Of a stretch of DNA of 33,983 bases, positions 5,311-33,832 are shown piece by piece; the stretch's first letter is position 1, and each line of letters begins with the position of its first letter. The DNA is taken from the NCBI GenBank assembly GCA_027621385.1, contig JAQCBQ010000004.1:1-33983 (forward strand). Direction: 5' to 3'. The notes beneath the pieces are model-generated. The model was not told the origin of the DNA, did not search any database, and saw only the letters and a program-made list of their open reading frames with translations. The DNA comes from Bacteroidota bacterium (GTDB lineage: Bacteria > Bacteroidota > Bacteroidia > CAIKAF01). The translations under genes were made by a program, and so were the position numbers.

Positions 5311-5460
5311 GGGGGCCTTATCCGGCTTTCCGTTCTAGGTCAGTGCATACAACGGCACCGGGCTGGTCGCTGCATGGGCTCCCAAGGTCGCCTCCGCCCG
5401 CCCGCCCGGTGTTGCCGTTGTATGCACCGCCCTATCACTGCAATCCGGGGCCCGGCCGCC
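5311..5460 (+). repeat. Intergenic palindromic repeat, copy 1 (forward)
   Basis: This is the most divergent of five related copies. It has a CGGCTTTC left end, a central core GGCTCCCAAGGTCGCCT (5377-5393) and a CAATCC right end. Long arms GTGCATACAACGGCACCGGG (5343-5362) and CCCGGTGTTGCCGTTGTATGCAC (5405-5427) pair along their length apart from a 3-nt insertion. The core is identical to that of the copy after ftsZ. It lies 61 nt after the PKS stop, in the same orientation as the PKS. Confidence 0.8.
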
Positions 5461-5512
5461 TCAGGCTAAAAATCAGGAGAGAAATTTAGAACAGCACATG
5501 TGGGCTGTGAGG

Positions 5513-5661
5513 TGGCCCGCGGCAGGGATTGAAGAGGCTAGCGCGCAAAGCAAAAAACCGCTGTTGGAGGCAGGGCAAAAGAGCGACGTGAGGAGCTACT
5601 TTTGGCCCAACTCCAACCGGTTTTTTGCTGCGTACTAGCCCTGAAAGCCCGCAGCCGCCCC
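5513..5661 (-). repeat. Intergenic palindromic repeat, copy 2 (reverse)
   Basis: Read on the minus strand it begins GGGGCGGCTGCGGGCTTTC, has the core AGCTCCTCACGTCGCTC, and ends TTCAATCCCTGCCGCGGGCC. Perfect arms AGCAAAAAACCG (5549-5560) / CGGTTTTTTGCT (5618-5629) and GTTGGAG / CTCCAAC stack into a long hairpin. It faces copy 1 tail to tail, with about 50 bp between them. It is the only copy not placed in sense orientation directly behind a gene. Confidence 0.85.
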
Positions 5662-5854
5662 CTTCCACATCCAAACCCTTGAATCTCTATCTTTTGTGCA
5701 ATTGAATGGCTTTAAAATATTGAAAATCAATAGTTTAAATTTAAATCGGCAGTTTTTCGCTAACAATAAATACTAAAAAAAACGTTAAAACCCTTTGCAG
5801 GAAAGGGATGTGGCTGATTTTGGTCGCTGAATTTGAGCAATAGTTATTAACAAA
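5662..5854. other. AT-rich non-coding stretch upstream of mraZ
   Basis: I see no gene here. It holds small palindromes (ATTGA-AAA-TCAAT, TTTAAATTTAAA) and a hairpin CCCTTT-GCAGG-AAAGGG (5791-5807) without a T-tract. A TGAATTTG at 5828-5835 is one base off the Bacteroidota -7 box but lacks a well-spaced TTG. Base composition is far more AT-rich than the repeats to its left, as expected for promoter DNA. Confidence 0.5.
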
Positions 5855-5890
5855 GTGGGAAATTGTGGGACTTTGTGGGGAAAAGTGGGA
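5855..5890 (+). promoter_or_regulatory. Putative MraZ operator: four GTGGG boxes at 10-bp period
   Basis: GTGGGA, GTGGGA, GTGGGG and GTGGGA start at 5855, 5865, 5875 and 5885. MraZ of E. coli is known to bind tandem TGGG repeats in front of its own operon, so this array 35 bp before mraZ probably serves autoregulation of the dcw cluster. A weak promoter may overlap it: TTTG at 5872 and TAATTTAG at 5900-5907, though the spacing is a little long. Confidence 0.8.
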
Positions 5891-5925
5891 AATCTTGGCT
5901 AATTTAGCGACGTAGAAGACCCACT

Positions 5926-6390
5926 ATGGCCCATTTTATCGGAGAACATAGCGCAAAAATTGATTCCAAAGGACGGGTATTGTTCCCGGCTTCCTTTCGC
6001 AAGCAATTGGCGGGCGAAGGCCAAGAGGAATTTGTGTTAAACCGTGGATTTGAACGCTGTTTGGTGCTGTATCCAAGAAAGGAGTGGGATGCGATTTCGG
6101 CTCAGCTGGCCAAATTAAACCCCTTCAAAAAAGAGAACCGCTTGTTTGTTCGGCAATTCAACAATGGCGCCATGCCGATTACCTTGGATTCTGCGGGCAG
6201 AATGCTGATTGGCAAGGATTTGCTCGGTTATGCTGGCATCAGTAGCGATATGATTTTTGCGGCCAACGGCAATAAAATTGAGCTGTGGTCAAAGGCCGAT
6301 TATGAGGAAATGATGCAAATTGATTCCGACGCCTTTGCTGACCTGGCTGAGCGTGTGATGGGCGGAGATTTAAACGCCTCTGAAGAATAA
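5926..6390 (+). CDS. mraZ: Transcriptional regulator MraZ
   Basis: The 154-aa product has the two-lobed MraZ/AbrB-like layout. The first half is MAHFIGEHSAKIDSKGRVLFPASFRKQL, and the second has ITLDSAGRMLIGKDLLGYAG; the DSKGR and DSAGR turns mark the two SpoVT-AbrB repeats. Family members form ring-shaped DNA-binding oligomers, and in E. coli MraZ represses its own operon. It is the first gene of the dcw cluster here, as usual, and four GTGGG boxes lie directly upstream. Its TAA stop overlaps the ATG of rsmH by one base (TAATG), which suggests coupled translation. Confidence 0.96.
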   Translation: MAHFIGEHSAKIDSKGRVLFPASFRKQLAGEGQEEFVLNRGFERCLVLYPRKEWDAISAQLAKLNPFKKENRLFVRQFNNGAMPITLDSAGRMLIGKDLLGYAGISSDMIFAANGNKIELWSKADYEEMMQIDSDAFADLAERVMGGDLNASEE

Positions 6391-7298
6391 TGCAGACTTC
6401 AGTATACCATACTGCCGTATTGCTCAAGGAAACGGTAGATGCTTTGAATATGAAGCCCGACGGAGTGTATATCGATGTGACGTTTGGGGGAGGCGGGCAC
6501 AGCCGAGAAATGCTGCAGCGCCTGGATTCAAACGGTCAATTGCTGGCTTTTGACCAAGATCCGGATGCCCGGCAAAATTGCCCGGACGATGCGCGGCTGA
6601 CCTTCATCCCCTCCAACTTCCGCTATATGGCCTCGTATTTAAAGGTGCATCAAGTAACTGAAGTGGATGGCATCTTGGCCGATTTGGGGGTTTCTTCCCA
6701 CCAATTGGATGTGGCAGAACGGGGGTTTACCCATCGGGTTGAAAGTCCTTTAGATATGCGCATGGGGCCAGGGATGCCTCAAACTGCCGCTCAGGTGTTG
6801 AATGCATCCTCTGCAGAAGAACTTACCTTTATTTTTAAAAATTACGGCGAGGTTAAGTTGGCCTACCGCTTGGCTCAGCGGATTGTTCGGCAGCGCGAGC
6901 TGGCTCCGTTTAAATTGTCCTCTGATTTGCGGCCCATGCTGAAAGGTTTGTGTCCGCCCGAGGGTGAGAACAGGCTTACTGCTCAGGTATTTCAGGCCCT
7001 GCGCATTCATGTAAACGATGAGTTGGGTGCCCTGCGCGAATTTTTAGAAGGAGCCGCATTGGTTTTGAAAAAGGGGGGACGGGTATCGGTTATTTCCTAC
7101 CATTCTTTGGAAGACCGAATGGTTAAGCACTTCTTTCGGTCCGGTAATTTTCAAGATGAGGTTAAGACGGACTTGTTTGGGAAGCCTTTACGTCCGTTGC
7201 AGCCCATCAATCGGCAAGCCATTCAGCCCAGCGTTGAAGAACAGGCGCTGAATCCCCGCTCGCGCAGCGCAAAACTTAGAACGGCAGAGAAAGTATGA
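6390..7298 (+). CDS. rsmH: 16S rRNA (cytosine-N4)-methyltransferase RsmH (MraW)
   Basis: The 302-aa product has the normal family length. The SAM-binding loop VTFGGGGHSREML lies near residues 28-40, followed by ADLGVSSHQLD and RGFTHRVESPLDMRM, a conserved RsmH block. VSVISYHSLEDRMVKHFF near the C-terminus is the family signature. The enzyme N4-methylates a cytidine in the decoding centre of 16S rRNA (C1402 in E. coli). It overlaps mraZ by one base and the following ftsL-like gene by four (ATGA). Confidence 0.97.
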   Translation: MQTSVYHTAVLLKETVDALNMKPDGVYIDVTFGGGGHSREMLQRLDSNGQLLAFDQDPDARQNCPDDARLTFIPSNFRYMASYLKVHQVTEVDGILADLGVSSHQLDVAERGFTHRVESPLDMRMGPGMPQTAAQVLNASSAEELTFIFKNYGEVKLAYRLAQRIVRQRELAPFKLSSDLRPMLKGLCPPEGENRLTAQVFQALRIHVNDELGALREFLEGAALVLKKGGRVSVISYHSLEDRMVKHFFRSGNFQDEVKTDLFGKPLRPLQPINRQAIQPSVEEQALNPRSRSAKLRTAEKV

Positions 7299-7678
7299 TC
7301 CGGGCAAAGAAAAAACAAGCATCTGCAGCAGCAGAAGCCAAGACCGGAAACGCTTGGTTTAAGTCTTTTTTGCGTGCGGAATTGATAGATCCGGCCTGGG
7401 TGTTTAAACATGCCAATTTTGTTTTGTTTTTGACTTCTTTGGGCTTGATTTATATTGGGGCCTCGTATGTTTCCTTGAACAGCATTCGTCGGCTTGAGGC
7501 CCTCGAGAAAAGCATAAAGGTGCAAAAGGCCATTAGCATCGAGCAGGAAAACCGCCTGATGGAATTGTCAAAAAAGGGTAGGCTAGAGGCCTTACTTTCT
7601 TCTCGAGGTATAACCATTCCGTTTGAACCACCTCATGTTTTGGTGGTTTCGACGGATAGCCTAATTGCATTGCACTGA
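7295..7678 (+). CDS. ftsL: FtsL-like cell division protein (FtsL_2 type)
   Basis: The 127-aa product has a basic cytoplasmic N-terminus (MIRAKKKQ), one membrane segment (FVLFLTSLGLIYIGASYV, about 47-64) and a periplasmic coiled-coil region (LNSIRRLEALEKSIKVQKA onward). It ends in a short tail with ITIPFEPP. Position between rsmH and ftsI and this topology fit the Bacteroidota FtsL analogue, a bitopic divisome scaffold. Sequence conservation in this family is low, so the call rests mainly on topology and synteny. The start overlaps the rsmH stop (ATGA). Confidence 0.85.
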   Translation: MIRAKKKQASAAAEAKTGNAWFKSFLRAELIDPAWVFKHANFVLFLTSLGLIYIGASYVSLNSIRRLEALEKSIKVQKAISIEQENRLMELSKKGRLEALLSSRGITIPFEPPHVLVVSTDSLIALH

Positions 7679-7679
7679 T

Positions 7680-11194: not shown

Positions 11195-11198
11195 CACT

Positions 11199-18164: not shown

Positions 18165-18174
18165 ATTATTCACT

Positions 18175-19473: not shown

Positions 19474-19510
19474 TCTATACTACAATCAATAATCCTCAAC
19501 CCTAAAAACC

Positions 19511-21013
19511 ATGAGTACGAACCTAACCAATCCAGAAGATATGTTTTCTTTCGAAATGCCCCGCAAAGACAATGCCTCCATCATCAAAGTTATTGGTGTG
19601 GGCGGCGGCGGATCAAATGCTGTAAACCACATGTTCCGTCAAGGAATCACGGGTGTGGATTTTATGGTCTGCAACACCGATCACCAGGCTCTCAATACCA
19701 GTCCTGTTCCAATTAAAATTCCCCTAGGCCAAAATTTAACCGAAGGAAGGGGTGCTGGGTCTATTCCTGAAATTGGGCGGAAAGCCGCCATTGAAAGCAT
19801 CGACGATATTCGTCAACATTTGTCCGACAACACCAAAATGGTATTTATCACTGCGGGGCTGGGCGGCGGAACAGGTACAGGAGCCGCTCCGGTCATTGCT
19901 AAATTGGCCAAAGAAATGGGCATCCTCACGGTTGGAATTGTAACCATTCCCTTTCAATTCGAAGGTAAAAAGCGGGGTATGCACGCCACGGCTGGTTTGG
20001 AAGAAATCCGCAACAGCGTAGATACCCTTCTGATTATTTCCAACGATCGCCTCCGCGAAATCTACGGAAATCTATCTCTCACCAATGCCTTTGGAAAGGC
20101 CGACGATATTCTAACCACGGCGGCAAAAGGCATCGCTGAAATTATTACCGTGCCTGGCTACATTAACGTAGACTTCGAAGACGTTAAAACGGTAATGACC
20201 AACGGCGGAGCCGCCATTATGGGCGCCGCCATCACCGAAGGTGAAAACCGTGCAACATTGGCCGCAGAACAAGTGTTGAACTCTCCACTGCTCGATGATT
20301 CAGATATCAACGGAGCCAAACATATTCTCCTTTACATTTCCTACGGAGAAAATGAACTCACCATGGACGAGGTAACCGAAATCAACGAATATGTTCAGGA
20401 AAAGGCCGGCATGAATGCAAATATGATTTGGGGAACCGGTCAAGATGATGCATTGGGTCAGGCCATTCGAGTTACCCTCATCGCTACTGGATTCAATAAA
20501 GATGAGTCCGCGGCAACAGAACAGGTTACCGTTCAATTGGATACCACCAACGATTCCCTGAAGACAGAGGACGCCTTCGAGATGTCTCCGCTAGAAGCCT
20601 TGGAGCCTCAAATTGAAGCCTCAGAAACTGGCGATTCAAATCCGATTACGGTTGATTTGCTTGGCGATGAAAGCCCCCGCGAATTGAATACCAGCGAATA
20701 TACCCTGTATCAACGCGAAGATAGCGAGGAACTTCCCGCACAGCCTCAAACGCGTGCTGAAGTCCCTACACCGACCAGCATTTCTTCCATGGGCCAGCGC
20801 AGGGAATTGCTCGAAAACATCACGGCTCGCCTCCAAAATCCCGCTCGAATCGCTGAATTGGAGCAAAGCCCCGCTTATTTGCGTAAAAAGGTAGAACTGG
20901 AACTGACGCCAACCATGGACGATCGCGTAGCTTCAAAGTCAACTCTATCAATGGAAGGCGGCGAAATTCGCCTAAGAGACAACAATTCCTTCCTGCACGA
21001 TAGCGTTGATTAA
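19511..21013 (+). CDS. ftsZ: Cell division GTPase FtsZ
   Basis: The 500-aa product has the tubulin-like core with VIGVGGGGSNAVNHM, the GTP signature GLGGGTGTGAAPV, ISNDRLREIYG and the T7 synergy loop NVDFEDVKTVM. After the core (about residue 335) comes a long acidic, variable linker and a C-terminal region with PARIAELEQSPAYLRKKVELE, a block I associate with Bacteroidota FtsZ. The protein is longer than E. coli FtsZ mainly because of this linker. It forms the Z-ring. It is the last gene of the cluster, and repeat copy 3 begins 24 nt after its stop. Confidence 0.98.
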   Translation: MSTNLTNPEDMFSFEMPRKDNASIIKVIGVGGGGSNAVNHMFRQGITGVDFMVCNTDHQALNTSPVPIKIPLGQNLTEGRGAGSIPEIGRKAAIESIDDIRQHLSDNTKMVFITAGLGGGTGTGAAPVIAKLAKEMGILTVGIVTIPFQFEGKKRGMHATAGLEEIRNSVDTLLIISNDRLREIYGNLSLTNAFGKADDILTTAAKGIAEIITVPGYINVDFEDVKTVMTNGGAAIMGAAITEGENRATLAAEQVLNSPLLDDSDINGAKHILLYISYGENELTMDEVTEINEYVQEKAGMNANMIWGTGQDDALGQAIRVTLIATGFNKDESAATEQVTVQLDTTNDSLKTEDAFEMSPLEALEPQIEASETGDSNPITVDLLGDESPRELNTSEYTLYQREDSEELPAQPQTRAEVPTPTSISSMGQRRELLENITARLQNPARIAELEQSPAYLRKKVELELTPTMDDRVASKSTLSMEGGEIRLRDNNSFLHDSVD

Positions 21014-21037
21014 TTCCGGGCTTTGTTGATGTTCTTG

Positions 21038-21186
21038 GGGGCGGGTTACGGGCTTTCGCGGGTAGTCCGCAGGCACAGGCCTCGGCTCCAGCGGCTTTAC
21101 GCGGGCTCCCAAGGTCGCCTGCGCAGCACGCGGAGCCGCGCCCTCTGCCTTTACGGGCTACGCCTGCTCAATCCCGCCCGCAGCCA
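21038..21186 (+). repeat. Intergenic palindromic repeat, copy 3 (forward)
   Basis: Left end GGGGCGGGTTACGGGCTTTC, outer stem GTAGTCC (21063-21069) / GGGCTAC, inner arms CGGCTCC / GGAGCCG (perfect) and AGGCACAGG / CCTCTGCCT (one mismatch). Core GGCTCCCAAGGTCGCCT (21104-21120), right end TCAATCCCGCCCGC. It fills most of the gap between ftsZ and the thioesterase gene and runs in the ftsZ sense direction. I see no separate intrinsic terminator after ftsZ, so the structure may itself end transcription. Confidence 0.88.
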
Positions 21187-21234
21187 CCTCAAAACCAATA
21201 CCACCCTACAAATCCTTTCCTCGGGTTTAGTTCC

Positions 21235-21242
21235 TAACTTTG
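21235..21242 (+). promoter_or_regulatory. Bacteroidota -7 promoter box for the thioesterase gene
   Basis: TAACTTTG matches the TAnnTTTG consensus exactly, and the ATG begins four bases later. No good TTG -33 element is visible at the expected distance. If it is used, transcription would start at or next to the A of the ATG. Confidence 0.55.
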
Positions 21243-21246
21243 AACT

Positions 21247-21684
21247 ATGAGCATCTGGTTTACGATTTATTCCCTCAACGACATCAATGCCTTGTGCAAT
21301 AATACCCTCATGGATCATTTGCAAATGGAAGTGATTGAAGTGGGAGACAATTTTATTAAAGGGAAAATGCCCGTTGAACATTTCACCGTGCAGCCGGCCA
21401 GGTTGCTTCACGGCGGAGCCACTGCCGCTTTGGCTGAATCGCTCGGAAGCATTGCTGCCTACATGACTGTAAATCCACAAACCCATGCATGCCTTGGAGT
21501 TAATCTTGACATTACGCACATCAAGGCTATACCCGAAGGTCGAGGCCCTGTATTCGGCACGGCAAGGCCGGCAAAACTTGGAAATACACTTCAAGTTTGG
21601 AACATTACCATGGAAACATCCTCAGGCCAAATTGTGGCTGAATCAAGACTCACCCTGTTCGTACGCGCATTAAAGTCGGCATGA
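21247..21684 (+). CDS. Hotdog-fold acyl-CoA thioesterase (PaaI/YdiI-like)
   Basis: The 145-aa product has the hotdog core with LLHGGATAALAESLGSIAAYM (His55, Glu64), the HGG...E signature of PaaI/YdiI-type thioesterases. LGVNLDITHIKAIPEGRGPVFGTA follows in the central helix and sheet. Such enzymes hydrolyse CoA thioesters; in Bacteroidota, relatives are often linked to 1,4-dihydroxy-2-naphthoyl-CoA or phenylacetyl-CoA, but nothing here fixes the substrate. An in-frame TGA two codons upstream fixes the start at 21247 or later. The 3' end overlaps the methyltransferase gene by four bases, so the two are probably co-transcribed. Confidence 0.88.
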   Translation: MSIWFTIYSLNDINALCNNTLMDHLQMEVIEVGDNFIKGKMPVEHFTVQPARLLHGGATAALAESLGSIAAYMTVNPQTHACLGVNLDITHIKAIPEGRGPVFGTARPAKLGNTLQVWNITMETSSGQIVAESRLTLFVRALKSA

Positions 21685-22571
21685 ATCAAATCCCAATACT
21701 TGCCACCCGAGGCTGGAATAATTATGAATTAATCGATTCAGGCGGGTTTGAAAAGCTGGAACGATTTGGCAACATAATCACTATCCGTCCTGAACCTCAA
21801 GCCATTTGGGAGAAAGATCTATCCAATTCCGATTGGGAAAAAAGAGCCCATATCCGATTTGTAGGCAGCAGCCCCCGAGATGGGAAATGGATGGAATTAA
21901 AGCCATGCCCTGAACGGTGGACACTGGAATATGAATTGAATTCCCAAAAAATCCTCACATTTCAGCTGGCTCGAACCAAATTCAAGCACATCGGTTTGTT
22001 CCCGGAACAATCGGTAAATTGGGAACGCCTGTTTCAGGCCCTGTCGGCCATGAAATCACCAGAAAAATCCGTATTAAATGCCTTCGCCTACACCGGTGGC
22101 GCAAGTCTGGCTGGCCGAGCTGCCGGCGCCTCGGTAACCCATGTTGATTCCATAAAACAGGTGGTCAGTTGGGCGGCTAGCAATCTGGCACTTTCCAAAA
22201 TGGACGGAATACGCTGGATGGTCGAAGACGCCCCAACCTTTTTAAACCGCGAATTGCGTCGGGGTAAATCCTACAACGCCATCGTTCTAGATCCCCCCGC
22301 ATTTGGGCACGGACCCAACGGTGAATCCTGGATTTTAGAAAAACAAATCTACGATTTGGTTGACACCGCCATTCAATTGCTGAATCCAACCGAAGCAATC
22401 CTCATTGTCAATACCTATTCGCTCGGCTTTTCTTCAATTCTTGTTTACAATGTGTTGAAGCAGTTGGCACTTCCCTCAGATTTAATAGAATCTGCAGAAT
22501 TATGCCTTGAAGATGGGTTTGGGAAACGACTACCCTTGGGTGTCGTAACTACCCTGAAACGGGGTTTTTAA
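21681..22571 (+). CDS. Class I SAM-dependent methyltransferase (RlmI/RlmK-like)
   Basis: The 296-aa product has the Rossmann methyltransferase motifs SVLNAFAYTGGASLAGRAAGASVTHVDS (motif I, about 132-159, quoted in part as NAFAYTGGAS) and AIVLDPPAFGHGPNG (motif IV, DPP). These resemble the C-terminal domain of the 23S rRNA methyltransferases RlmI and RlmK. The N-terminal PUA domain of RlmI is absent; instead there is a short beta-rich region (LIDSGGFEKLERFGNIITIRPEPQ). The substrate is most likely RNA but is not shown by the sequence. The gene overlaps the thioesterase stop (ATGA). A short ACCC...GGGTTTTT at its 3' end could be a weak terminator. Confidence 0.85.
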   Translation: MNQIPILATRGWNNYELIDSGGFEKLERFGNIITIRPEPQAIWEKDLSNSDWEKRAHIRFVGSSPRDGKWMELKPCPERWTLEYELNSQKILTFQLARTKFKHIGLFPEQSVNWERLFQALSAMKSPEKSVLNAFAYTGGASLAGRAAGASVTHVDSIKQVVSWAASNLALSKMDGIRWMVEDAPTFLNRELRRGKSYNAIVLDPPAFGHGPNGESWILEKQIYDLVDTAIQLLNPTEAILIVNTYSLGFSSILVYNVLKQLALPSDLIESAELCLEDGFGKRLPLGVVTTLKRGF

Positions 22572-22577
22572 AAAATG

Positions 22578-22652
22578 GGAGGACAATGGGATTCGAACCC
22601 ACGACCTTCAGAACCACAATCTGACGTTCTAACCGACTGAACTATGCCCTCC
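22578..22652 (-). tRNA. tRNA-His (GTG anticodon)
   Basis: On the minus strand the sequence folds into a complete cloverleaf. The acceptor stem is GAGGGCA / TGTCCTC, the D arm starts at GTTCAGTCGGTTAGAAC, and the anticodon arm TCAGA-TTGTGGT-TCTGA has GTG at positions 34-36. The T arm is GTGGG-TTCGAAT-CCCAT. An extra 5' G (G-1) faces C73, the known identity element of tRNA-His. The 3' CCA is not fully encoded. Confidence 0.96.
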
Positions 22653-22677
22653 ATGTCAAAGAATCCCTAATGGGATG

Positions 22678-22685
22678 CAAATATA
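22678..22685 (-). promoter_or_regulatory. -7 promoter box for tRNA-His
   Basis: On the minus strand TATATTTG matches TAnnTTTG exactly, 25 nt before the tRNA 5' end. A clear -33 TTG is not visible. The rest of the 215-bp gap between the tRNA and copA shows no gene. Confidence 0.6.
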
Positions 22686-22855
22686 GCAATTCTACTCATA
22701 TTTCTTTTTTCCTAGCATCAGATAGCAATAAAAGATGAAGGACATCTAACCTAAGCGTTTGATTTCATTGAATGTTCATCTCGAGCTTGGATTGTTCTTG
22801 CGTTAGGACGTTCCTTTTCGGTGATTTTTATCTCCAATCCGCCCTAAAATACAGG

Positions 22856-22863
22856 TATCTTTG
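22856..22863 (+). promoter_or_regulatory. -7 promoter box for copA
   Basis: TATCTTTG is an exact TAnnTTTG match whose last base lies four nt before the copA ATG. No TTG is seen 17-23 bp upstream. The placement implies a leaderless or nearly leaderless mRNA. Confidence 0.55.
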
Positions 22864-22867
22864 ACCT

Positions 22868-24961
22868 ATGGAATTTCATTTAACCATTGCGGGAATGAGC
22901 TGTACCGCATGCTCTGCTGCTGTTGAATCTGCATTGAGGAAAACACCGGGAATAAACGAAGCACAGGTTTCATATACCTTGGCAGAAGCTAAAATTCAAG
23001 TGGATTCGCCCCAAGTGGCTCAGTTGGCCATTGAGGCGATTAAGAAGGCGGGTTATTCAGCCTCTCTTTCACCATCAGAGCAACATGCTCCAAGCCCAGC
23101 TTGGCCCGTTCTCCTTGCTCTGGGGTTTACCCTGCCCGTGTTTATCAGTGGGATGTTTTTTCATTCCCACCCATTAACCCCTTATTTTGGTCTGCTTTTT
23201 AGTACTCCGGTTCTTTGGCTGGGTCGTTCTTTTTTTCAACGCGGTTTCCTTCAAATCCGCAAGGGGAAGCCGGCAATGGATACCTTGGTTGGCATCAGCA
23301 CTGGTGTTTCTTATTTCTACAGCATAACTGCCCTTGCCTTGGGTCACACAGATTCCTTGTTTTTTGAAGCTGCTGCCATGGTTATTTCATTTGTTATGCT
23401 AGGAAAATGGCTAGAGGAAAAGGCCAGGTATAAAACCTTAGCTGGCATTAGATCCTTAATCCAACTTATGCCGTCAAGAGCAAGACTTTACCCCGATGCC
23501 AACTGGGTTGAACTTGCTCAACTTAAGAAGTTGGATTTGATTATGGTTGCCACTGGCGATGAAATACCTGCGGATGCGCAGGTGGAATCCGGACAAATGG
23601 AGGTGGATACCTCTTGGCTAAGTGGAGAGTCATTGCCAATACTAGCCCGCTCTGGAGATGTGGTTTTTGCAGGAAGCAGCGTGGTAAGTGGACATGCCGT
23701 TTTGCGAATTACTGCCATCGGCGATTCGTCTAGACTTGGACAAACCTTGGCACAGGTTAAAAAGGCCTTGGTTACGAATTTGCCCATGCAACGGTTGGCC
23801 GATGCCGTATCAGCAAAGTTTGTGCTCTTCATTATCGCATTTGCCTTAGGGAGTGCTGGACTATGGTTGTTTCTTGCCCCTGAAACCCCAGCTATTTTTG
23901 CGCTACAGGTCGGTCTCACCGTTTTAGCCGTGGCTTGTCCTTGTGCGCTTGGGCTTGCCGTTCCTACGGTAATTTCTGTAGCCTTGGGCAAAGCAGCTCA
24001 AAAGGGGATTTTCTTCCAACGGCCAGAGGCCTTGGAGTCTTTGGCGCAGGTGCGGCGCATTTTTATGGATAAAACCGGAACCTTGACCGAAGGGAAGCCT
24101 AAGGTTGTATGGACCAATGCTGTACCTCAAGAACATGCTGCAGTGGTTTGGGAGCTGGCTTCTATATCTCAGCATCCGCTTTCCAAATCGCTTGCCAATT
24201 GGGCCAAACAACGTAAGCCTAATTTGCCTTATTCCTCAATTTCTCAGATCACTGAGGTTCCGGGTTTTGGTTTGGAAGGAATATGGGACGGAAAAGAAAT
24301 CCGGCTTGGTGCTCCCAATTGGGCCGGTCCTTGGCCAACAGAAATTGCAATGGATGCCAGTCCCGTTATTCTTGGAAATGGACAGGCTACATATGCAGCC
24401 TTTTTACTTCAGGATGCCCCAAGGGCGAATGTACTGGCCATAATGAAGCAGTTGATTCATTTGAGATTAATTCCCATCGTGTTGACGGGCGACCGAACCC
24501 TGTCTTCTGCTGTTCGCGACGTTTTGCCGCAGCAGGTTCAAGTTCATTTAAGTCAACAACCCGAAGATAAGATACGTGCCATTGAACGGGCAAAATCAGA
24601 GGGAGAAATTGTTCTAATGGTGGGCGATGGAATCAATGATGCTCCGGCTCTTGCGCATGCAAACATTGGAATTTCGATGGGGGAAGGCAGTTACCTGGCA
24701 CGACAGTGCAGCCACATTAATTTAGGCGATTCCAATTTGGATTTGTTGCCGGAAGCCATACGAATTTCAAAACAGGCAGTTCGCCTCATGCGCCAAAATA
24801 TGCTTTGGGCTCTTTCCTATAATTTGGTGGCTCTTCCCCTGGCAGCTGGTGTTTTATTTCCGTTTACAGGACATTTATTTAATCCTATGTGGGCAGGAAT
24901 GGCCATGGCGGCCAGTTCTGTTTTTGTTGTTCTGAATAGCCTTCGTTTATCTTTTTCGTAA
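22868..24961 (+). CDS. copA: Cu(I)-type P1B ATPase (CopA-like)
   Basis: The 697-aa product has one N-terminal heavy-metal domain (GMSCTACS, Cys12 and Cys15). Membrane helices follow, then the actuator loop LSGESLP and the CPC transport motif (357-359) in ACPCALGLAVPT. The phosphorylation site is DKTGTLTEG (Asp401), with the SQHPLSKSL nucleotide-site motif and GDGINDAPAL (about 586-595). YN in WALSYNLVALP and MAASSVFVVLNSLRL near the end match the known Cu(I) selectivity residues of subgroup P1B-1, so copper is favoured over Zn/Cd. It should pump Cu(I) out of the cytoplasm. An in-frame TGA two codons upstream and the metal-binding motif at residue 12 fix the start. No copper regulator or chaperone is adjacent. 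Confidence 0.94.
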   Translation: MEFHLTIAGMSCTACSAAVESALRKTPGINEAQVSYTLAEAKIQVDSPQVAQLAIEAIKKAGYSASLSPSEQHAPSPAWPVLLALGFTLPVFISGMFFHSHPLTPYFGLLFSTPVLWLGRSFFQRGFLQIRKGKPAMDTLVGISTGVSYFYSITALALGHTDSLFFEAAAMVISFVMLGKWLEEKARYKTLAGIRSLIQLMPSRARLYPDANWVELAQLKKLDLIMVATGDEIPADAQVESGQMEVDTSWLSGESLPILARSGDVVFAGSSVVSGHAVLRITAIGDSSRLGQTLAQVKKALVTNLPMQRLADAVSAKFVLFIIAFALGSAGLWLFLAPETPAIFALQVGLTVLAVACPCALGLAVPTVISVALGKAAQKGIFFQRPEALESLAQVRRIFMDKTGTLTEGKPKVVWTNAVPQEHAAVVWELASISQHPLSKSLANWAKQRKPNLPYSSISQITEVPGFGLEGIWDGKEIRLGAPNWAGPWPTEIAMDASPVILGNGQATYAAFLLQDAPRANVLAIMKQLIHLRLIPIVLTGDRTLSSAVRDVLPQQVQVHLSQQPEDKIRAIERAKSEGEIVLMVGDGINDAPALAHANIGISMGEGSYLARQCSHINLGDSNLDLLPEAIRISKQAVRLMRQNMLWALSYNLVALPLAAGVLFPFTGHLFNPMWAGMAMAASSVFVVLNSLRLSFS

Positions 24962-25372: not shown

Positions 25373-25376
25373 GGGT

Positions 25377-25384
25377 TAAAGATA
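25377..25384 (-). promoter_or_regulatory. Possible -7 promoter box for the DUF983 gene
   Basis: On the minus strand TATCTTTA differs from TAnnTTTG only in the last base and ends four nt before the ATG. A TTG lies 15 bp further upstream, slightly closer than usual. Confidence 0.4.
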
Positions 25385-25455
25385 AAAGGGATTTCTAAGC
25401 AATTGGGTGATATGCATCACCTCAATACATTTGTTTTGAGGTGGTATTGGTTTTG

Positions 25456-25600
25456 TGCGGCAGGGATTGAACAAGGTAGCCCGCAAAGATGCCGGCGGGA
25501 GCTACCCTAGGGCGAGGAGGCGACGTGAGGAGCCACCGCAGCCCAAGGGTAGCCCGTCCGGCAGCTGCGGACTACCTGTGAAAGCCCGGCAGCCGCCCCG
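25456..25600 (-). repeat. Intergenic palindromic repeat, copy 4 (reverse)
   Basis: Read on the minus strand: GGGGCGGCTGCCGGGCTTTC left end, outer stem GTAGTCC / GGGCTAC, and inner arms GCTACCC / GGGTAGC and GCCGG / CCGGC. The core is GGCTCCTCACGTCGCCT and the right end TTCAATCCCTGCCGC. It lies just past the gldJ terminator, in the direction of gldJ transcription, and upstream of the DUF983 promoter. Confidence 0.88.
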
Positions 25601-25633
25601 AAGAAAATGGCCATTTAAATTTAGGGGAGGAGC

Positions 25634-25660
25634 AAAAAAAAACCGCGCCTAAGCGCGGTT
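25634..25660 (-). terminator. Intrinsic terminator of gldJ
   Basis: On the minus strand AACCGCGC-TTAG-GCGCGGTT is followed by a run of seven further T residues: a perfect 8-bp GC-rich stem with a tetraloop, starting six nt after the gldJ stop codon. Confidence 0.92.
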
Positions 25661-25666
25661 CAGAAT

Positions 25667-27220
25667 TTAATTGTTTCGTTTATCCGGTTTGGCATATTGA
25701 GAACCGCCACGGTGCACATAGCGGTTGTGTTTCGCAATGCCCATTGGAGGACCAATTCGATCCATGGCACAACGGAAACCAATCCATTCAGTAGAAGCTT
25801 GTTCGTCCAAATGACGGCGAGTGCCAGGAACCATCCAGTAGGCCGGATCTTTCCATGAACCACCTTTAATAACCCGAGACTGATTGTTAATTAAAGTGGT
25901 AGCACTGTAGTCGTACATGGCATGTGTTCCAGAAACCGAATCGGCGTAGCTGGCATCGTTGAAGTACAATGAAGAAACAACGTCTCCATCTTCATAATCC
26001 AAATAGTTGGCTCGCTTGTAGTTGCGGCGCATAGCGGCATCATCTTTGGTTACATCTACATACTGAATGCGACCTAAAGAATCTTTTTCCGCCAAAAAGC
26101 CTTCATCATCCAACAATTTCTTTTTGAAAACGTTACCGCGGAATGGGCGGAACTCATCAAAATCCATTAAAGAAAGCGGGCGATATACATCCATAACCCA
26201 TTCTGAAACGTTGCCGGCCATATTATATAAGCCAAAGTCATTGGGCCAGTAAGCATATACAGGAACGGTGGCATCTCCCATATCGTTCAGACGACCTGCA
26301 CTTCCCATGTAGTCTCCACGGCCACGACGAAAGTTCGCCAAGAAGTCTCCTTTGAATTTCTCATTCGGATTTCTGGAAATATGACCACTCCAGGGGTACA
26401 GCCTTTTCTCTTTAATGATTTCGCGGTCGGTGGAAGGATCTGTGTTTCCTACTAAAGCCAATGCAGCATACTCCCATTCTGCCTCGGTTGGAAGTCGGAA
26501 TTTAGGAAGAAGCAAACCATCTTCAATACGCACTTTACGTTGTTCTCCGGTAAAAATATTTACAGGTTGGAATTTCTTTTTATTGTTCAAACCAAGTTCA
26601 TATTGACCAGCCAGATAGGCTTCAGTGTTGAAGTTTTCTTCTGCCAATTGCTCTTGAGGATGCCAAACCATGATTTTTTCCCGAACCATGATCATTTCAT
26701 TGGTTCGGTCGGTACGCCAGGCGCAAAAATCATTGGCTTGAATCCAGCTTACTCCTACAACAGGGTAGTAATTGTAGGCAGGATGCCGTAAATAGTTGTC
26801 GACATAATTGTCAAAAAAGCCCATTTTAGATCTCCAAACCAGGGTGTCGGGCAATGCCTTTGTCAACACCTCAGGGTAATCTTCTCCAAAAACCCGCTTT
26901 ACCCATTCCAAATATTCCCGGTAGGCAACATTGGAAACTTCAGCCTCGTCCATATAGAAGGAAGAAACTGTTACTCTGCGCGGTTGATTGTCATGTTCAA
27001 ACAGAACGTCTTGTTCTACTTGACCCATTACGAAGGTGCCTCCCTCAATAAGTACAAGACCAGGACCTGTTTCTTGTTCAATGTACGGCGGAACCTCAAA
27101 GCCACCATTGCGGGCATCGTTGTATGCCCATCCTGTGGTAGATGAAATTTGTTGGTCTTTGCAAGATGCAAAAGCCGCAACAAGTGCGGCTAACATTCCA
27201 ACTTGAGTTATTTTTTTCAT
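25667..27220 (-). CDS. gldJ: Gliding motility / type IX secretion lipoprotein GldJ (FGE-sulfatase fold)
   Basis: The start at 27220 (minus) is chosen because MKKITQVGMLAALVAAFASC is a lipoprotein signal with the lipidated Cys20; the ORF-track start adds 15 unsupported residues. The 517-aa product has the SUMF1/FGE fold, with GPGLVLIEGGTFVMG, SSFYMDEAEVSNVAYREYL, PVVGVSWIQANDFCAWR, FRLPTEAEWEYAA, YNMAGNVSEWVMDV and GGSWKDPAYW. The Cys pair used by formylglycine-generating enzymes in the GGS region is absent, so a structural role is expected. In gliding Bacteroidota GldJ stabilizes GldK and the outer-membrane ring. Being GldJ rather than GldK is inferred from the ETGPGLV start and from linkage to porU and porV, as in Flavobacterium johnsoniae. 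Confidence 0.87.
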   Translation of the reverse strand: MKKITQVGMLAALVAAFASCKDQQISSTTGWAYNDARNGGFEVPPYIEQETGPGLVLIEGGTFVMGQVEQDVLFEHDNQPRRVTVSSFYMDEAEVSNVAYREYLEWVKRVFGEDYPEVLTKALPDTLVWRSKMGFFDNYVDNYLRHPAYNYYPVVGVSWIQANDFCAWRTDRTNEMIMVREKIMVWHPQEQLAEENFNTEAYLAGQYELGLNNKKKFQPVNIFTGEQRKVRIEDGLLLPKFRLPTEAEWEYAALALVGNTDPSTDREIIKEKRLYPWSGHISRNPNEKFKGDFLANFRRGRGDYMGSAGRLNDMGDATVPVYAYWPNDFGLYNMAGNVSEWVMDVYRPLSLMDFDEFRPFRGNVFKKKLLDDEGFLAEKDSLGRIQYVDVTKDDAAMRRNYKRANYLDYEDGDVVSSLYFNDASYADSVSGTHAMYDYSATTLINNQSRVIKGGSWKDPAYWMVPGTRRHLDEQASTEWIGFRCAMDRIGPPMGIAKHNRYVHRGGSQYAKPDKRNN

Positions 27221-27286
27221 GCCTAGGCAGTTTAAAGCGAATACAAAGGGATAACGAAAGTACAAAAGATTATTGTATGTCCAAGT

Positions 27287-28255: not shown

Positions 28256-28280
28256 AACCGAAGAATGGACATATGAAGTT

Positions 28281-28288
28281 CAAAGATA
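28281..28288 (-). promoter_or_regulatory. -7 promoter box for porP
   Basis: On the minus strand TATCTTTG matches TAnnTTTG exactly, 25 nt before the porP ATG. A -33 TTG is not clear. It probably drives porP and possibly gldJ. Confidence 0.6.
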
Positions 28289-28538
28289 AGAAACGGGAGT
28301 AAAGTTAGAACATATTTTAACATTTTGATGTTGAAAATGCAGAAGGCTCTCGGTCAAAACCCAAAGTCGAGGTGTTTGCATATCCTAAAATTTAATTCAT
28401 TTCTAACCCATGAGGTATACGAAAATCGATTGTGCCGCGTTATTGGCTCGATCTTGCATCAGATTTCTCCTTTAAAGTTACGATTTAATTTTAAAAATTC
28501 AAGTCTTTCCATGCCTGCGTTCAGATTTTCTTGTTGGA

Positions 28539-28570
28539 TTTGTACCTGTGCCCTCCAACATGTACCTTTA
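28539..28570 (+). promoter_or_regulatory. -33/-7 promoter for porU
   Basis: TTTG (28539-28542), a 20-bp spacer and TACCTTTA (28563-28570) fit the Bacteroidota TTTG/TAnnTTTG promoter, with one mismatch in the last base. The -7 box ends six nt before the chosen porU ATG. Confidence 0.6.
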
Positions 28571-28576
28571 CATTCT

Positions 28577-31500
28577 ATGAGGTTGTTCGTTTTTGGAATT
28601 GTTTTTTTTCTTGGTTTAACTGCATCGGCTCAGCCCAATCCAATTCGTGTTTCTCTTGATTTGAAAGAGCGGGTGCAAGCCGACTCGAAGGATGAGACCA
28701 TAGAATTGATGGGCTTAAATGCATTTCCCGATTCCAAGCGACCTTCGTGGTCCCTTGTATTTGAACGCGGTCAGGCCCTGATGTCGTACTCCGTTCGGCC
28801 CATTTCATTCGATACACTTAGAACGAATGCGCAGGTGCTGGCAGATCTGCCACTTTTAAGTCATGAAATTCGCACCAAGGCCTTGCGGTATTCTGTTCGT
28901 GGAGAACAATTCCTGCGTTTGATTGGCGACGCGCTTTTTAAAGATACGGATGGCCACATCCTTTTAATTAAAGAGGTAGAACTCGCCCCTCAACCCATTA
29001 TCTCATCAGAAAGTGCTACCAAATCGTTTTCATTTCCCCTCAGTTCTTCGGTCCTTAATTCGGGAACTTGGTTTAAATTGGGAATGGTTTCGGAAGGGGT
29101 ACACCGCTTAGATTACAATCAGTTGTTGCAATGGAATGCCATTAGCGGCCCCATATCATCCAATCAATTGGGTATGGTGGGGAACGGCGGCTACCGATTG
29201 GCGGAAGATTTAAATGCCCCACGTCCAGATGACCTTCAACCCATTCCTTTGCAGATTGAAGACGGCGGAGACGGTCAATTTGGCCCAGGAGACTTTCTCC
29301 TGTTTTACACGCATGGATTAAAACGCTGGGTTTGGAACGGTCAGCAATACGAGCATGACAATAATATGTATTCCGATACTGTCTATGCTTTTTTTAGTCC
29401 CAATCAGCCGGGGCCCCGACTTCAAAATCAAACCATGCCACAGGGGTTGCCTGAGTATATCACCAACAAGGGAGACTTTTTCCAATGGGTAGAAGAAGAA
29501 AAGCAAAACCTCATTAAATCAGGCCGAAAGTGGTTTGGCGATGTGTTTAGCTTTACCAATACCTATTCGTATTCATTTTCCTTAGGTAACTGGACGCCGG
29601 GAGATTCCGTTTCCCTTCGAATAGCTACCGCTGCCCGATGTGTCAGTTGCTCTTCTGTGTTTTCGTTTTCAGCCAATGGAATTTCTGTGGGCAGTGCCAC
29701 TTTGGGTCAGGTTTCCAGCAATTACGCCGGCAACTACATCACTGAAAATACATTTTCAACCCGATTTCCCGTAAATTCCAGCACGCTGTCTGTTCAGGTT
29801 TCTCGAACCAGCCCCCAATCCGGTTCTGAAGATCAACGCGCCTGGTTGGATTATGTTACCGTCCATTACCGACCAACGCTTCAGTTTAGCGGGCAACCCT
29901 TCGTTTTTCAAGATCATAAGGCAGCGGGATTGGCCGAATTTCGAATCTTAAATCCAAGCTTACCTATGCAAATGTGGCGGGTCGATGACATGGCCAACCC
30001 CCTAAACCTTAAAACGGCATCTGCTAGCGGTTTTGATTACGTTCGCCTTGAAAATGCAGAAGGAGCTAAGTTGGTTGTGTTTGGAGCACCCAATACCCTT
30101 CCATCGCCTTCCTTCTTCGGACAGGTCCCCAATCAAAATATCCATGCCCTGGTCGCTTTAGACCCTGTCCCAGATTTGGTGGTAATTACGCATCCTTCTC
30201 TTGTGCAACCGGCCACAGAACTTGCCGAAATGCACCAAGTGCAAGACGGAATGGTGGTGCACTTGGTTACAACAGAACAGATTTTCAACGAGTATTCCAG
30301 CGGCGGCCAGGATATTTCCGCTCTTCGGGATTATGTTCGCAGCTATTTCCAATTTAGGGGCGATTCCATTGGTCCTCGATATGTTATGCTTTACGGTTCT
30401 GGCAGCTTCGACTATCTACCCCATCGAAACCGGCTTTCGGCCCCCAATCACAATTTGGTGCCCTCGTTTCAAACTTGGGATTCGCGCAGCCGAAGCGGCG
30501 GTTCTCACCCCTCTGATTTTTTCTATGCGGCATTCAGCCCGAACACCAGCAGCGACGGTGTGGTGAACAGCAGTACGCCCATTTGGCTTGGCATAGGTCG
30601 CGTGTTAGCTACCACTGCAGAAGAAGGATTTGCTTACAATCGAAAAGTTCAGCATTATCAAGAAAGCAGCGATTGCTTCGGAGATTGGCGCAACACTGTA
30701 ACGCTGTTCTCTGACGATATGGAAGCCGCGTGGGAAAGCAGCTTTATTACCGACAACGAATGGATTTACCAATGGCTGAAAACCAATCAGCCCGTTTGGA
30801 ATGTTGATAAGGTTTACATTGATGCGTTTCAACAAAATACCACAGCTGGGCAGAGGTATCCGGAAGCCAACGATTACTTGAATCGGCGAATAAATAAAGG
30901 CACCTTGTTTTTAAATTACATTGGCCATGGTGGCGAATCCGGACTTACCGCAGAACGAGTACTGCAAATCGATGACATTGAAAAATGGACAAACTCCAAT
31001 CAGTCTTCGATTTTCTCCACAGCAACCTGCACCTTCACCCGGTTTGATGACCCAACCTTTGAATCGGCCGGAGTGCGCGTTCTGCAACGAGAAGATAAAG
31101 GAGCAGTAGCCTTATTGAGTACAGTTCGAGCCATTCCGGTGGTTCCAACTTACCTTAAAAAATGGACTCAGGTCACCTTCGGAGGGTTTGATGCTTCTGA
31201 TACACGCTTGGGAGATATCCTGTTTGAATCTAGAAAATGCATTCCCAGTTGCGACGGTGGAGAAAACAATATTTTACTTTTTGGCGACCCTGCCTTGCGT
31301 CCCGCTTATCCTAGGTATTTGGTGCTGACAGATAGCATAAATGGACAGGCCATTCAAAATGAATCTTTTGATGATACCCTAAAGGCAACAGATGTGGTTC
31401 GGATCAGTGGCCGAATCGCCACCCGCGATAGCATACTAATGGACTCCTTCAATGGGATTATCTCGGTCACGGTGTACGATAAACCCCAGCAACTTCAAAC

Positions 31501-32404
31501 CCTTAAAAACGATGCTGAAGGGATGAACTTTGATTTTGAAATCCAAAATTCGGTGGTTTTCCGGGGCCAAGCTAGCGTTCAAAACGGTCAATGGAGCATA
31601 CAGTTTAAGGTGCCGCTGGATATCAATTACTTGGTAGGCGAAGGAAAATTCAGCTATTACGCACACAACGGAAACGTGGACGCTCATGGCTACCAAGCCA
31701 ATATTAAAATTGGTGGTGCCTCCGGAAACTGTGAAAACGATGGACAAGGCCCAGAAGTTACCTTATTCATGAACGACTCCCTGTTTGTGAATTTAGGAAT
31801 TACCCATGCTTCGCCCACATTTTACGCAGAAGTAAACGACGCAAGCGGCATCAATACGGCCAATGGAGGCATTGGCCATGAAATTCAACTGAGCATTACG
31901 GGCCCTGTGAATCAAACATTTTACCTCAATGATTATTATGAGGCGGCCATCAACAGCTACCAATCCGGCTCAATCCGCTTCCAATTGAAAGACCTGCCCG
32001 AGGGCTTTTATACGGCCGAATTGTTGGTCTGGGACGGCTGCAATCAAGCCACTCGAACAACATTGAATTTTACGGTAGTCGGAACGCAACCCAATCTGAT
32101 TCGCGCAGAAGCTTGGCCAAATCCATTTGATAATCAAACGGCGTTAACGTTCCAACACAATTTAGCCGGAAAAGAACTAAAAGCCCATGTCCGCCTCACC
32201 GATGTGAGTGGAAGTTTGGTCAGAGAATTCAATTGGAACGGCAACTCAACAGGTTTCCAAGGTATCAATTTAACTTGGGATGGCACAAACAGCAGCGGCT
32301 CAAAAGTCAGTCCGGGCATGTATATTTTTTCGGTACAGCTGTCAGACGAGTTCGGTCAGGCTGCCTATGGCTATGGCCGAGTTATTTATGCCGGACGCCC
32401 ATAA
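28577..32404 (+). CDS. porU: Type IX secretion sortase PorU (C25 gingipain-like)
   Basis: The ATG at 28577 is preferred because it begins a clear signal peptide (MRLFVFGIVFFLGLTASAQ); the 84 extra residues in the ORF track do not fit. The 1275-aa product has a long N-terminal beta-rich region, then a caspase-like C25 peptidase domain. Its predicted catalytic His784 lies in NYIGHGGESGLT and Cys818 in STATCTFTRFDDP. A type IX C-terminal signal domain follows (AEAWPNPFDN ... GMYIFSVQL). PorU cleaves the C-terminal signal from cargo at the cell surface and joins cargo to the anchor, as part of the attachment complex with PorV. It is followed by porV after 52 nt. Confidence 0.95.
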   Translation: MRLFVFGIVFFLGLTASAQPNPIRVSLDLKERVQADSKDETIELMGLNAFPDSKRPSWSLVFERGQALMSYSVRPISFDTLRTNAQVLADLPLLSHEIRTKALRYSVRGEQFLRLIGDALFKDTDGHILLIKEVELAPQPIISSESATKSFSFPLSSSVLNSGTWFKLGMVSEGVHRLDYNQLLQWNAISGPISSNQLGMVGNGGYRLAEDLNAPRPDDLQPIPLQIEDGGDGQFGPGDFLLFYTHGLKRWVWNGQQYEHDNNMYSDTVYAFFSPNQPGPRLQNQTMPQGLPEYITNKGDFFQWVEEEKQNLIKSGRKWFGDVFSFTNTYSYSFSLGNWTPGDSVSLRIATAARCVSCSSVFSFSANGISVGSATLGQVSSNYAGNYITENTFSTRFPVNSSTLSVQVSRTSPQSGSEDQRAWLDYVTVHYRPTLQFSGQPFVFQDHKAAGLAEFRILNPSLPMQMWRVDDMANPLNLKTASASGFDYVRLENAEGAKLVVFGAPNTLPSPSFFGQVPNQNIHALVALDPVPDLVVITHPSLVQPATELAEMHQVQDGMVVHLVTTEQIFNEYSSGGQDISALRDYVRSYFQFRGDSIGPRYVMLYGSGSFDYLPHRNRLSAPNHNLVPSFQTWDSRSRSGGSHPSDFFYAAFSPNTSSDGVVNSSTPIWLGIGRVLATTAEEGFAYNRKVQHYQESSDCFGDWRNTVTLFSDDMEAAWESSFITDNEWIYQWLKTNQPVWNVDKVYIDAFQQNTTAGQRYPEANDYLNRRINKGTLFLNYIGHGGESGLTAERVLQIDDIEKWTNSNQSSIFSTATCTFTRFDDPTFESAGVRVLQREDKGAVALLSTVRAIPVVPTYLKKWTQVTFGGFDASDTRLGDILFESRKCIPSCDGGENNILLFGDPALRPAYPRYLVLTDSINGQAIQNESFDDTLKATDVVRISGRIATRDSILMDSFNGIISVTVYDKPQQLQTLKNDAEGMNFDFEIQNSVVFRGQASVQNGQWSIQFKVPLDINYLVGEGKFSYYAHNGNVDAHGYQANIKIGGASGNCENDGQGPEVTLFMNDSLFVNLGITHASPTFYAEVNDASGINTANGGIGHEIQLSITGPVNQTFYLNDYYEAAINSYQSGSIRFQLKDLPEGFYTAELLVWDGCNQATRTTLNFTVVGTQPNLIRAEAWPNPFDNQTALTFQHNLAGKELKAHVRLTDVSGSLVREFNWNGNSTGFQGINLTWDGTNSSGSKVSPGMYIFSVQLSDEFGQAAYGYGRVIYAGRP

Positions 32405-32426
32405 CCCATATTAACTGAAACTGACC

Positions 32427-32434
32427 TATATTTG
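32427..32434 (+). promoter_or_regulatory. -7 promoter box for porV
   Basis: TATATTTG is an exact TAnnTTTG match, 22 nt before the porV ATG and after the porU stop. porV may thus be transcribed both on its own and by read-through from porU. No clear -33 TTG is seen. Confidence 0.6.
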
Positions 32435-32456
32435 CACAGCAGGAATTACATTTAGC

Positions 32457-33644
32457 ATGCACACAATTTTCAAACATACTGCGCTTGCCCTACTTTGTGT
32501 TGGAGCAGCTACTTCTACAAGCCGCGCTCAAGACAGCGAGCCTACACGGGTTGTAACAACCTCCGTTCCTTTCCTGGTCATCGGCCCCGACGCTAGAGCC
32601 GGAGGAATGGCCGATCAAGGTGTTTCCACCTCTGCCGATGCCAATTCACTGCATTGGAACGTGGCTAAACTTGCCTTTGTTGATAAACCCATGGGAATGT
32701 CGGTATCTTACACACCCTGGCTGCGAAATTTAGTTCCGGATATCAATTTGGCCTACGTAGGGTTTTATGGAAAAATCAACGACCGCTTTACCGTTGGTGC
32801 CTCGCTGCGCTACTTTAATATGGGCGATATTAACTTTACGGATGAAGTCGGCATGTTTATGGGGACGTTTACTCCCAATGAATTGGCCATCGATGCCGGA
32901 GGTTCTCTGCTTTTGTCTGAGTATTGGAGCATGGGCATTAGCTTTAAATTTATCAGTTCTAACCTTACGCTGGGGCAGCAAGTCAACGGTCAACCCACAC
33001 AGCCCGGTTTGGCCGGTGCAGGTGATTTGGGTTTTTATTTTCAAAAACCCGGTCGTAAAATTGCCGGATTTCCCGTCATGTATCGCTTCGGAACCGCTAT
33101 CCAAAATATCGGGTCAAAAATTGATTATGGCAGTGCCCGTGGTCCGGAATGGATTCCTGTGAATTTCCGATTGGGTGGTGGAGCTGAACTTAAAATTGAC
33201 GACTACAATCGAATTGCCTTGAATTTGGAAGTCAGCAAGTTGCTTGTTCCAACTCCGCCAGAAACCAACATTACTGGCGATACCATCATTGCGGGACAAG
33301 ACCGCGATCGCCCTGTCCTCACAGGTATGTTTACTTCGCTGGCCGATGCGCCCGGTACCGGAGTATATGGTAGCGTGTTTGCCGAAGAAATGGACGAGTT
33401 TGTTTGGAGCATTGCTGCAGAATATTGGTACGGAAATGTCCTTGCCATCCGTTCAGGGTTCTTCTATGAATCGCCCCGCAAAGGCAACCGGCAATATGTA
33501 ACCTTAGGCGCCGGTTTGCGCTACAAAGTCTTCGGTCTAGATTTCGCGTACGTATTGCCCGTCGGCGGTCGCACAAATCCCCTTTCCAACACGCTACGCT
33601 TCACCCTAAGCTTTGATTTCGCAAAGGGTTTCGGAAAAAATTAA
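32457..33644 (+). CDS. porV: Type IX secretion outer membrane protein PorV (LptO)
   Basis: The 395-aa product has a signal peptide (MHTIFKHTALALLCVGAATSTSRA), then the PorV hallmark VPFLVIGPDARAGGMADQGVSTSADANSLHWN (quoted in part as GPDARAGGMAD). Alternating amphipathic strands of a FadL-like barrel follow, ending in TLRFTLSFDF, a typical outer-membrane barrel end. PorV collects cargo from the SprA translocon and presents it to PorU. Adjacent genes encoding the shuttle and the sortase are typical of type IX organisms. Repeat copy 5 begins about 43 nt after the stop. Confidence 0.95.
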   Translation: MHTIFKHTALALLCVGAATSTSRAQDSEPTRVVTTSVPFLVIGPDARAGGMADQGVSTSADANSLHWNVAKLAFVDKPMGMSVSYTPWLRNLVPDINLAYVGFYGKINDRFTVGASLRYFNMGDINFTDEVGMFMGTFTPNELAIDAGGSLLLSEYWSMGISFKFISSNLTLGQQVNGQPTQPGLAGAGDLGFYFQKPGRKIAGFPVMYRFGTAIQNIGSKIDYGSARGPEWIPVNFRLGGGAELKIDDYNRIALNLEVSKLLVPTPPETNITGDTIIAGQDRDRPVLTGMFTSLADAPGTGVYGSVFAEEMDEFVWSIAAEYWYGNVLAIRSGFFYESPRKGNRQYVTLGAGLRYKVFGLDFAYVLPVGGRTNPLSNTLRFTLSFDFAKGFGKN

Positions 33645-33670
33645 GAGTAAATCGTACCGTCAATTCTCCT

Positions 33671-33688
33671 CAAAAAGTGTTCTTTTTG
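33671..33688 (+). terminator. Weak hairpin after porV
   Basis: CAAAAAG-TGTT-CTTTTTG can form a 7-bp stem, AT-rich and without a separate T-tract beyond the stem. It could help end porV transcription, but the evidence is weak; the repeat that follows may matter more. Confidence 0.35.
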
Positions 33689-33832
33689 GGCGGTTACGGG
33701 CTTTCAGCAGTAGTCCTCGCCAAAAGCAGGGTATGCAGCGTCCTATGTTAGGCTCCTAAAGTCGCCTACATAGGCCAGCGCATACCGCTGCTTTTCGCTG
33801 TGGGCTACTTGCTTCAATCCCTACCGCGGGCC
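33688..33832 (+). repeat. Intergenic palindromic repeat, copy 5 (forward)
   Basis: Left end GGGCGGTTACGGGCTTTC, outer stem GTAGTCC / GGGCTAC, arms AAAAGCAG-GGTATGC / GCATACC-GCTGCTTTT (2-nt insertion) and CCTATGT / ACATAGG (perfect). Core GGCTCCTAAAGTCGCCT (33751-33767), right end TTCAATCCCTACCGCGGGCC. This copy has the most regular overall fold. It runs in the porV sense direction. Confidence 0.9.

Follow-up and report, generated by a model that had tools for sequence, protein, structure and literature searches.

Hairpin copies in the window

The window, i.e., the whole stretch of 33,983 nt analyzed here (contig JAQCBQ010000004.1 of a Bacteroidota MAG), contains five copies of a long hairpin repeat and one tRNA gene, the latter being the only Rfam match at gathering threshold across the window. 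The copies are listed with their scores against a covariance model of the family (model R1), which also defines their ends.

5311–5453, plus strand: copy 1, 53.9 bits, core at 5377–5391, fold z-score −3.5
5519–5660, minus strand: copy 2, 91.9 bits, core at 5582–5597 (AGCTCCTCACGTCGCT), fold z-score −5.3
21039–21181, plus strand: copy 3, 127 bits, core at 21104–21118
22578–22651, minus strand: tRNA gene
25457–25598, minus strand: copy 4, 103.9 bits, core at 25520–25534
33688–33827, plus strand: copy 5, 91.4 bits, core at 33751–33765

An earlier note, made from the letters of this DNA, had described five copies with shared ends and an invariant core. The copies are real, as each matches the single model over its full length (E 2e−9 to 1e−24). 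The core is not strictly invariant, copy 2 carrying a deviating version, and the shared ends are conserved in the family, although copy 1 has different, still complementary ones (GGGGGCC...TCCGGCTTTC with GCAATCCGGGGCCC, in short GGGGGCC...GGGGCCC). Copies 2 and 1 form a tail-to-tail inverted pair, copies 3 and 5 start 25 and 43 nt past the stop codons of the ORFs at 19511–21013 and 32457–33644, respectively, and copy 4 lies downstream of both the minus-strand ORF at 25667–27265 and the intrinsic terminator of that ORF.

Hairpin anatomy and covariation

Folding predicted that each copy forms a single long imperfect hairpin of about 142 nt. The foot is formed by GCGGC/GCCGC, above which come an asymmetric internal loop and GGG.TT/AA.CCC. 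The helix that follows has GTAGTCC/GGGCTAC at its end and contains a conserved T·G mismatch; it leads into the variable stem (about 20 pairs and one conserved unpaired base) and finally into a tip of the form GCGG..GGC-TCC(C/T)AA(G/A)GTC-GCC, in which the core GGCTCC..A.GTCGCC is conserved. The ends (GGGCGG..CGGGCTTTC and TCAATCCC.GCCGC), the GTAGTCC/GGGCTAC helix and the GGCTCC...GTCGCC tip are thus shared between copies, while the intervening stem is copy-specific but keeps its complementarity. Variation in the feet is paired as well (GGGCGG..CGGG with CCCT.CCGC, GGGCGCC..CCCG with CGGGGGCGC, GGGCGGG with CCCGCCC). The left flank is a T-rich tract that is almost free of C, and beyond the right end a weaker consensus extends for about 20 nt.

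In an alignment of 26 diverse copies, double changes were found in 49 of the 52 pairs and 88.8% of the paired cells were complementary, as compared with 57.9% in shuffles, a signal that was abolished by sliding the partners; this alignment was fitted to the model, so that the counts lean towards it, but arm-against-arm alignments made without the model agree.

Copy number and distribution

At least 145 matches to model R1 were found in the whole source genome (2.36 Mb in 246 contigs), a lower bound because at most 150 candidates were scored, and sites with the core motif (at most one mismatch) number 186 genome-wide versus 13 for a reversed control pattern, which is far above chance. Element length is tightly distributed, almost all copies having 139–146 nt (typically about 142 nt), and the two most alike copies of this genome are 95.1% identical. 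The description of a dense, structured, non-coding repeat family is therefore confirmed. The covariance-model search that the earlier note had proposed was run on the source genome and its relatives and succeeded in both, which disposes of the possibility that these five copies are the only ones and have no counterparts in relatives. Seven contigs of the source MAG (C8, C26, C91, C143, C170, C181, and C215) end inside hairpin copies; the assembly is thus probably interrupted by the repeat, and the genome would hold more copies than counted. A derivative of 85 nt, lacking the tip and the inner stem, is located near position 66 of locus L227 (minus strand), as expected from hairpin-mediated deletion.

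With the same model, the family was detected in each of the six genomes sampled from the genus, more weakly in G002 and G004, and four close species of the genus carry tens to hundreds of copies each. The repeat is rare in other genera of the family, most of which have no copies by this model. Named carriers comprise freshwater Flavobacteriales MAGs (LaPlata, Erken) and the Bacteroidetes MAG K_DeepCast. Bacteroidales and other Bacteroidetes MAGs contain homologous long forms in which the stems are different and the tip reads AGCTTCC..GGTCGCT, and a wider model (R2) recovered the same long form from many g63 genomes (a genus of the flavobacterial family f54). No match to the hairpin family was found in plasmid and phage collections.

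Relationship to Flavo-1

Flavo-1 (RF01705, Rfam type sRNA) was proposed as a candidate structured RNA by Weinberg et al. 2010 (PMC2864571) and is counted as one of the most abundant sRNA families (PMC9029176). Three of the loci found with R2 scored 57.8 (L338), 55.1 (L340) and 42.2 bits (L332) against the Flavo-1 model, the gathering threshold of which is 42 bits, and in g63, where each genome has 38–126 Flavo-1 copies, the two models match identical loci at near-identical coordinates. One g63 locus bears both a short Flavo-1 of 79 nt and a long form of 142 nt. In the window, the best Flavo-1 score was that of copy 1 (5315–5471, minus strand, 30.4 bits, E 0.011, aligned over the full 1–76 model positions); other copies of the source genome reached 28.7 or 27.3 bits or went undetected, and none genome-wide attained an E value of 0.001.

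By score, then, the window copies fall outside Flavo-1, but they agree with it in terminal motifs and short-helix arrangement: the feet match when the other strand is read (GATTG..GCGGAAA...AAAGC.GGGA), the succession of short helices and internal loops is shared, and both have a high copy number. The Rfam model differs in describing a short hairpin of 76 positions, whereas the copies here have a long extra stem and the GGCTCC..GTCGCC tip, about 142 nt in total. Since the window scores are below and those of several g63 loci above threshold, the family is, as judged from sequence resemblance, a long-arm branch related to Flavo-1 and no formal member of it. The earlier statement that no named family could be matched was fair, as the window copies are sub-threshold and the link emerged only through loci of another genus. 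MIR1144 and other weak Rfam matches near copies were taken as chance matches to long hairpins. Short Flavo-1-like hairpins of 60–80 nt (GGGCTTTCCGCTGCAATGCCC...GGGCATTTCCACTGCAATCCC) were also seen at L248 (position 7186, plus strand), L355, L364, and L373; at least L248 belongs to G001, and the genus thus has both short and long forms.

Genomic placement, conservation and turnover

The copies are intergenic and co-oriented with the upstream gene in 92 cases versus 48, the co-oriented ones starting a median of 21 nt past its stop codon. Convergent gene contexts outnumber divergent ones (42 versus 14, both resting on simple long-ORF calls), and all eight sampled pairs of copies closer than 300 bp are tail-to-tail. 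No T-run follows the hairpin on either strand; a T-run precedes it. An intrinsic terminator directly upstream is not the rule, being present at only 29 of 142 copies.

In the close relative G003 the site was occupied in 45 of 45 tests. The sites of copies 3 and 4 are occupied there. Elements differ from their G003 orthologues by 1.7% and the adjacent 60 bp by 6–7%; this roughly fourfold stronger conservation in place suggests a host function, unlike a dead transposon. G001 and G005 are congeners at greater distance. There a site can carry the stem of the source genome with compensated changes, carry another stem, or lack the hairpin altogether; about half of the sites tested are empty. The window copies illustrate this range: copy 4 is absent from both genomes, while copy 5 has an orthologue with compensated changes in G005, the corresponding site of G001 holding a hairpin with a different stem. 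The family thus probably spread in the past, is now not visibly active, and is constrained in place. At close distance the 45 tests yielded no clean pair of empty and filled sites, which would have shown the insertion ends and the target. A fixed insertion unit of 194 bp was considered and dismissed (some empty-site differences are 193–195 bp, others 134, 158, or 336), as was a role of the stem in guiding the element to local flanks (longest match on average 7.55 versus 7.43 in controls, i.e., no excess).

Within window positions 21016–22868, the segment 21223–22697 has one orientation in the source genome and G003 and the reverse one in G001 and G005, and one breakpoint of this inversion coincides with copy 3.

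Pairing as DNA or as RNA

Among 305 distinct copies, the variable stem contains 4877 Watson-Crick pairs, and its isolated mismatches number 37 (G·T) and 42 (A·C), a ratio to be read as indicative because the copies are related and not phylogenetically independent; the source genome's own copies have 8 and 19, respectively. G-U thus accounts for about 0.8% of the variable stem and is no commoner than A-C, whereas a control on tRNA acceptor stems (21 tRNAs of the same set of DNA) gave 12 G-U and 0 A-C. Pairing that serves an RNA would tolerate G-U far above A-C in its varying helices, so the equal counts indicate strand-symmetric pairing, as for DNA. Between nearest-neighbor copies, double transversions (218) exceed double transitions (130), and wobble intermediates therefore play no special role. 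Two conserved positions do retain G-T on the plus strand (164 and 69 counts among the 305 copies); these look like fixed recognition features, but an RNA reading would equally allow them. Taken together, the stem pairing appears to be maintained as DNA, i.e., as a hairpin, as a cruciform, or through arm-to-arm templated correction. Of the structured RNA that the earlier note had suggested, the structure stands and the RNA is disfavored by the mismatch pattern, even if the nearest family is filed as sRNA. In a transcriptome of F. psychrophilum (2021), Flavo-1 matches showed no consistent sense or antisense orientation to transcripts, and many were untranscribed (PMC9723704), which fits the DNA reading. 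In the open-access library searched, we found no paper that treats Flavo-1 as a DNA repeat, and a literature search by sequence fragment returned nothing relevant.

RAYT genes and mobilization

The family resembles REP/BIME sequences (PMC6006769) in being intergenic, present in high copy number, hairpin-forming with conserved mismatches, and arranged in close inverted pairs. It differs in length (139–146 nt as compared with 21–65 nt), in its stem, which varies between copies, and in the position of GTAG, which sits within the hairpin, some 24 nt away from its end, and not, as GTAG/GTGG in REPs, at the foot. Two RAYT-like genes are present in the source genome, and subclass 2.6 TnpAREP genes of Bacteroidetes reportedly have atypical secondary structures on their flanks (PMC6006769). 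Nevertheless, G001 and G005 (99–100% complete) have no Y1 gene and yet at least 53 model matches each, G468 and G483 are likewise carriers without a Y1 gene, and a copy was present in only 1 of 20 Y1 neighborhoods of carrier genomes. One RAYT of G003 has a copy 158 bp upstream, while the two RAYTs of the source genome have different short palindromes within or around the gene. On the sequence evidence we therefore rejected RAYT as the driver, and the RAYT-driven repeat raised in the earlier note is unsupported. A non-autonomous mobile element is the best fit of its three suggestions, although transposition was not seen; no cargo-bearing or autonomous version with distant half-ends was found in 1.97 Mb of sampled DNA.

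The RAYT-like genes of the source genome and G003 (L031 1327–1893, L032 1447–2043, L194 1087–1719) contain short palindromes inserted in frame (coding for ETHNRASL and ENATKGEHRGSPL) that are unlike the hairpin family and correspond to those described for TnpAREP subclass 2.4. In G002 and G004 (L187, L188, L192, L196), variant long hairpins with other tips, e.g., GGGCCCCCGAAGTATCGAGGGGCC, occur near Y1 genes, of which three resemble subclass 1.2; given the density of copies, this nearness is probably a coincidence.

Interpretation and alternatives

We consider it rather likely that the family is a long-arm branch related to Flavo-1 and constitutes a DNA hairpin repeat whose copies once spread as a non-autonomous element. 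It would act as folded DNA, either as a cruciform or as a hairpin formed by single-stranded DNA during replication, and a putative protein would recognize the feet, the fixed mismatches and the tip. The stem could drift because only its complementarity would be needed, changes in one arm being matched in the other through selection or arm-to-arm copying, and a putative mobilizing enzyme may formerly have spread the copies. The patchy distribution and the turnover of sites at greater distance (occupied, empty, or with a different stem) speak for this reading; against it count the host-function-like conservation in place, the lack of a clean pair of empty and filled sites at close distance, and the fact that no such enzyme was identified among the sequences examined.

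The alternative of a structured RNA, i.e., a 3′-UTR hairpin or a noncoding RNA that is read from a single strand and influences termination or the stability of the mRNA, would account for the co-orientation shortly past stop codons, the excess of convergent contexts, the conservation in place, the plus-strand G-T positions, and the Rfam type of Flavo-1. We regard it as unlikely, since G-U is no commoner than A-C in the stem while the tRNA control behaves as an RNA should, no T-run follows as in a normal terminator, and the F. psychrophilum matches lie on either strand and are often untranscribed. Strand-symmetric pairing and strong conservation in place would be equally expected of a DNA site maintained by the host for chromosome organization or the insulation of neighboring genes and bound by a nucleoid or cruciform-binding protein, for which the gene-end placement and the tail-to-tail pairs also speak; this seems improbable, as sites are often not shared with G001 and G005 and most genera of the family do without the repeat. 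That the copies are REP sequences mobilized by a RAYT (Y1 HUH transposase), e.g., of subclass 2.6, is very improbable and already largely refuted by the carriers without Y1, the lack of linkage and the different palindromes at the source genome's own RAYTs, notwithstanding its two RAYT-like genes, the description of that subclass, and the single copy near a RAYT in G003.

More broadly, we tentatively propose, with slightly less than even confidence, that Flavo-1 and the long branch form a phylum-wide class of DNA hairpins and not RNAs, the arms of which would be kept Watson-Crick by a strand-symmetric process (templated copying or selection on extruded DNA) and which would be moved or used by a putative non-RAYT enzyme. 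Flavo-1 is routinely annotated; if the pairing is kept as DNA, a large set of sRNA annotations in Bacteroidota would be wrong, and a widespread DNA hairpin element would have a partner protein yet to be found. The long branch, which has a conserved tip and at least 145 copies in a genome of small size, offers a strong model for the search for this partner and for a clean test of RNA versus DNA.

Comparison with other hairpin elements

Conservation of structure over sequence is also known from the attC sites of integrons, which are recognized in folded form with extrahelical bases. The ends described here do not contain the R″/R′ boxes of attC (RYYYAAC and GTTRRRY), the copies do not form cassette arrays, and the tip, variable in attC, is conserved. 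ERIC elements, intergenic imperfect palindromes of about 127 bp, share this general form with the family, but they are conserved along their whole length, whereas the stem of the hairpins is specific to each copy.
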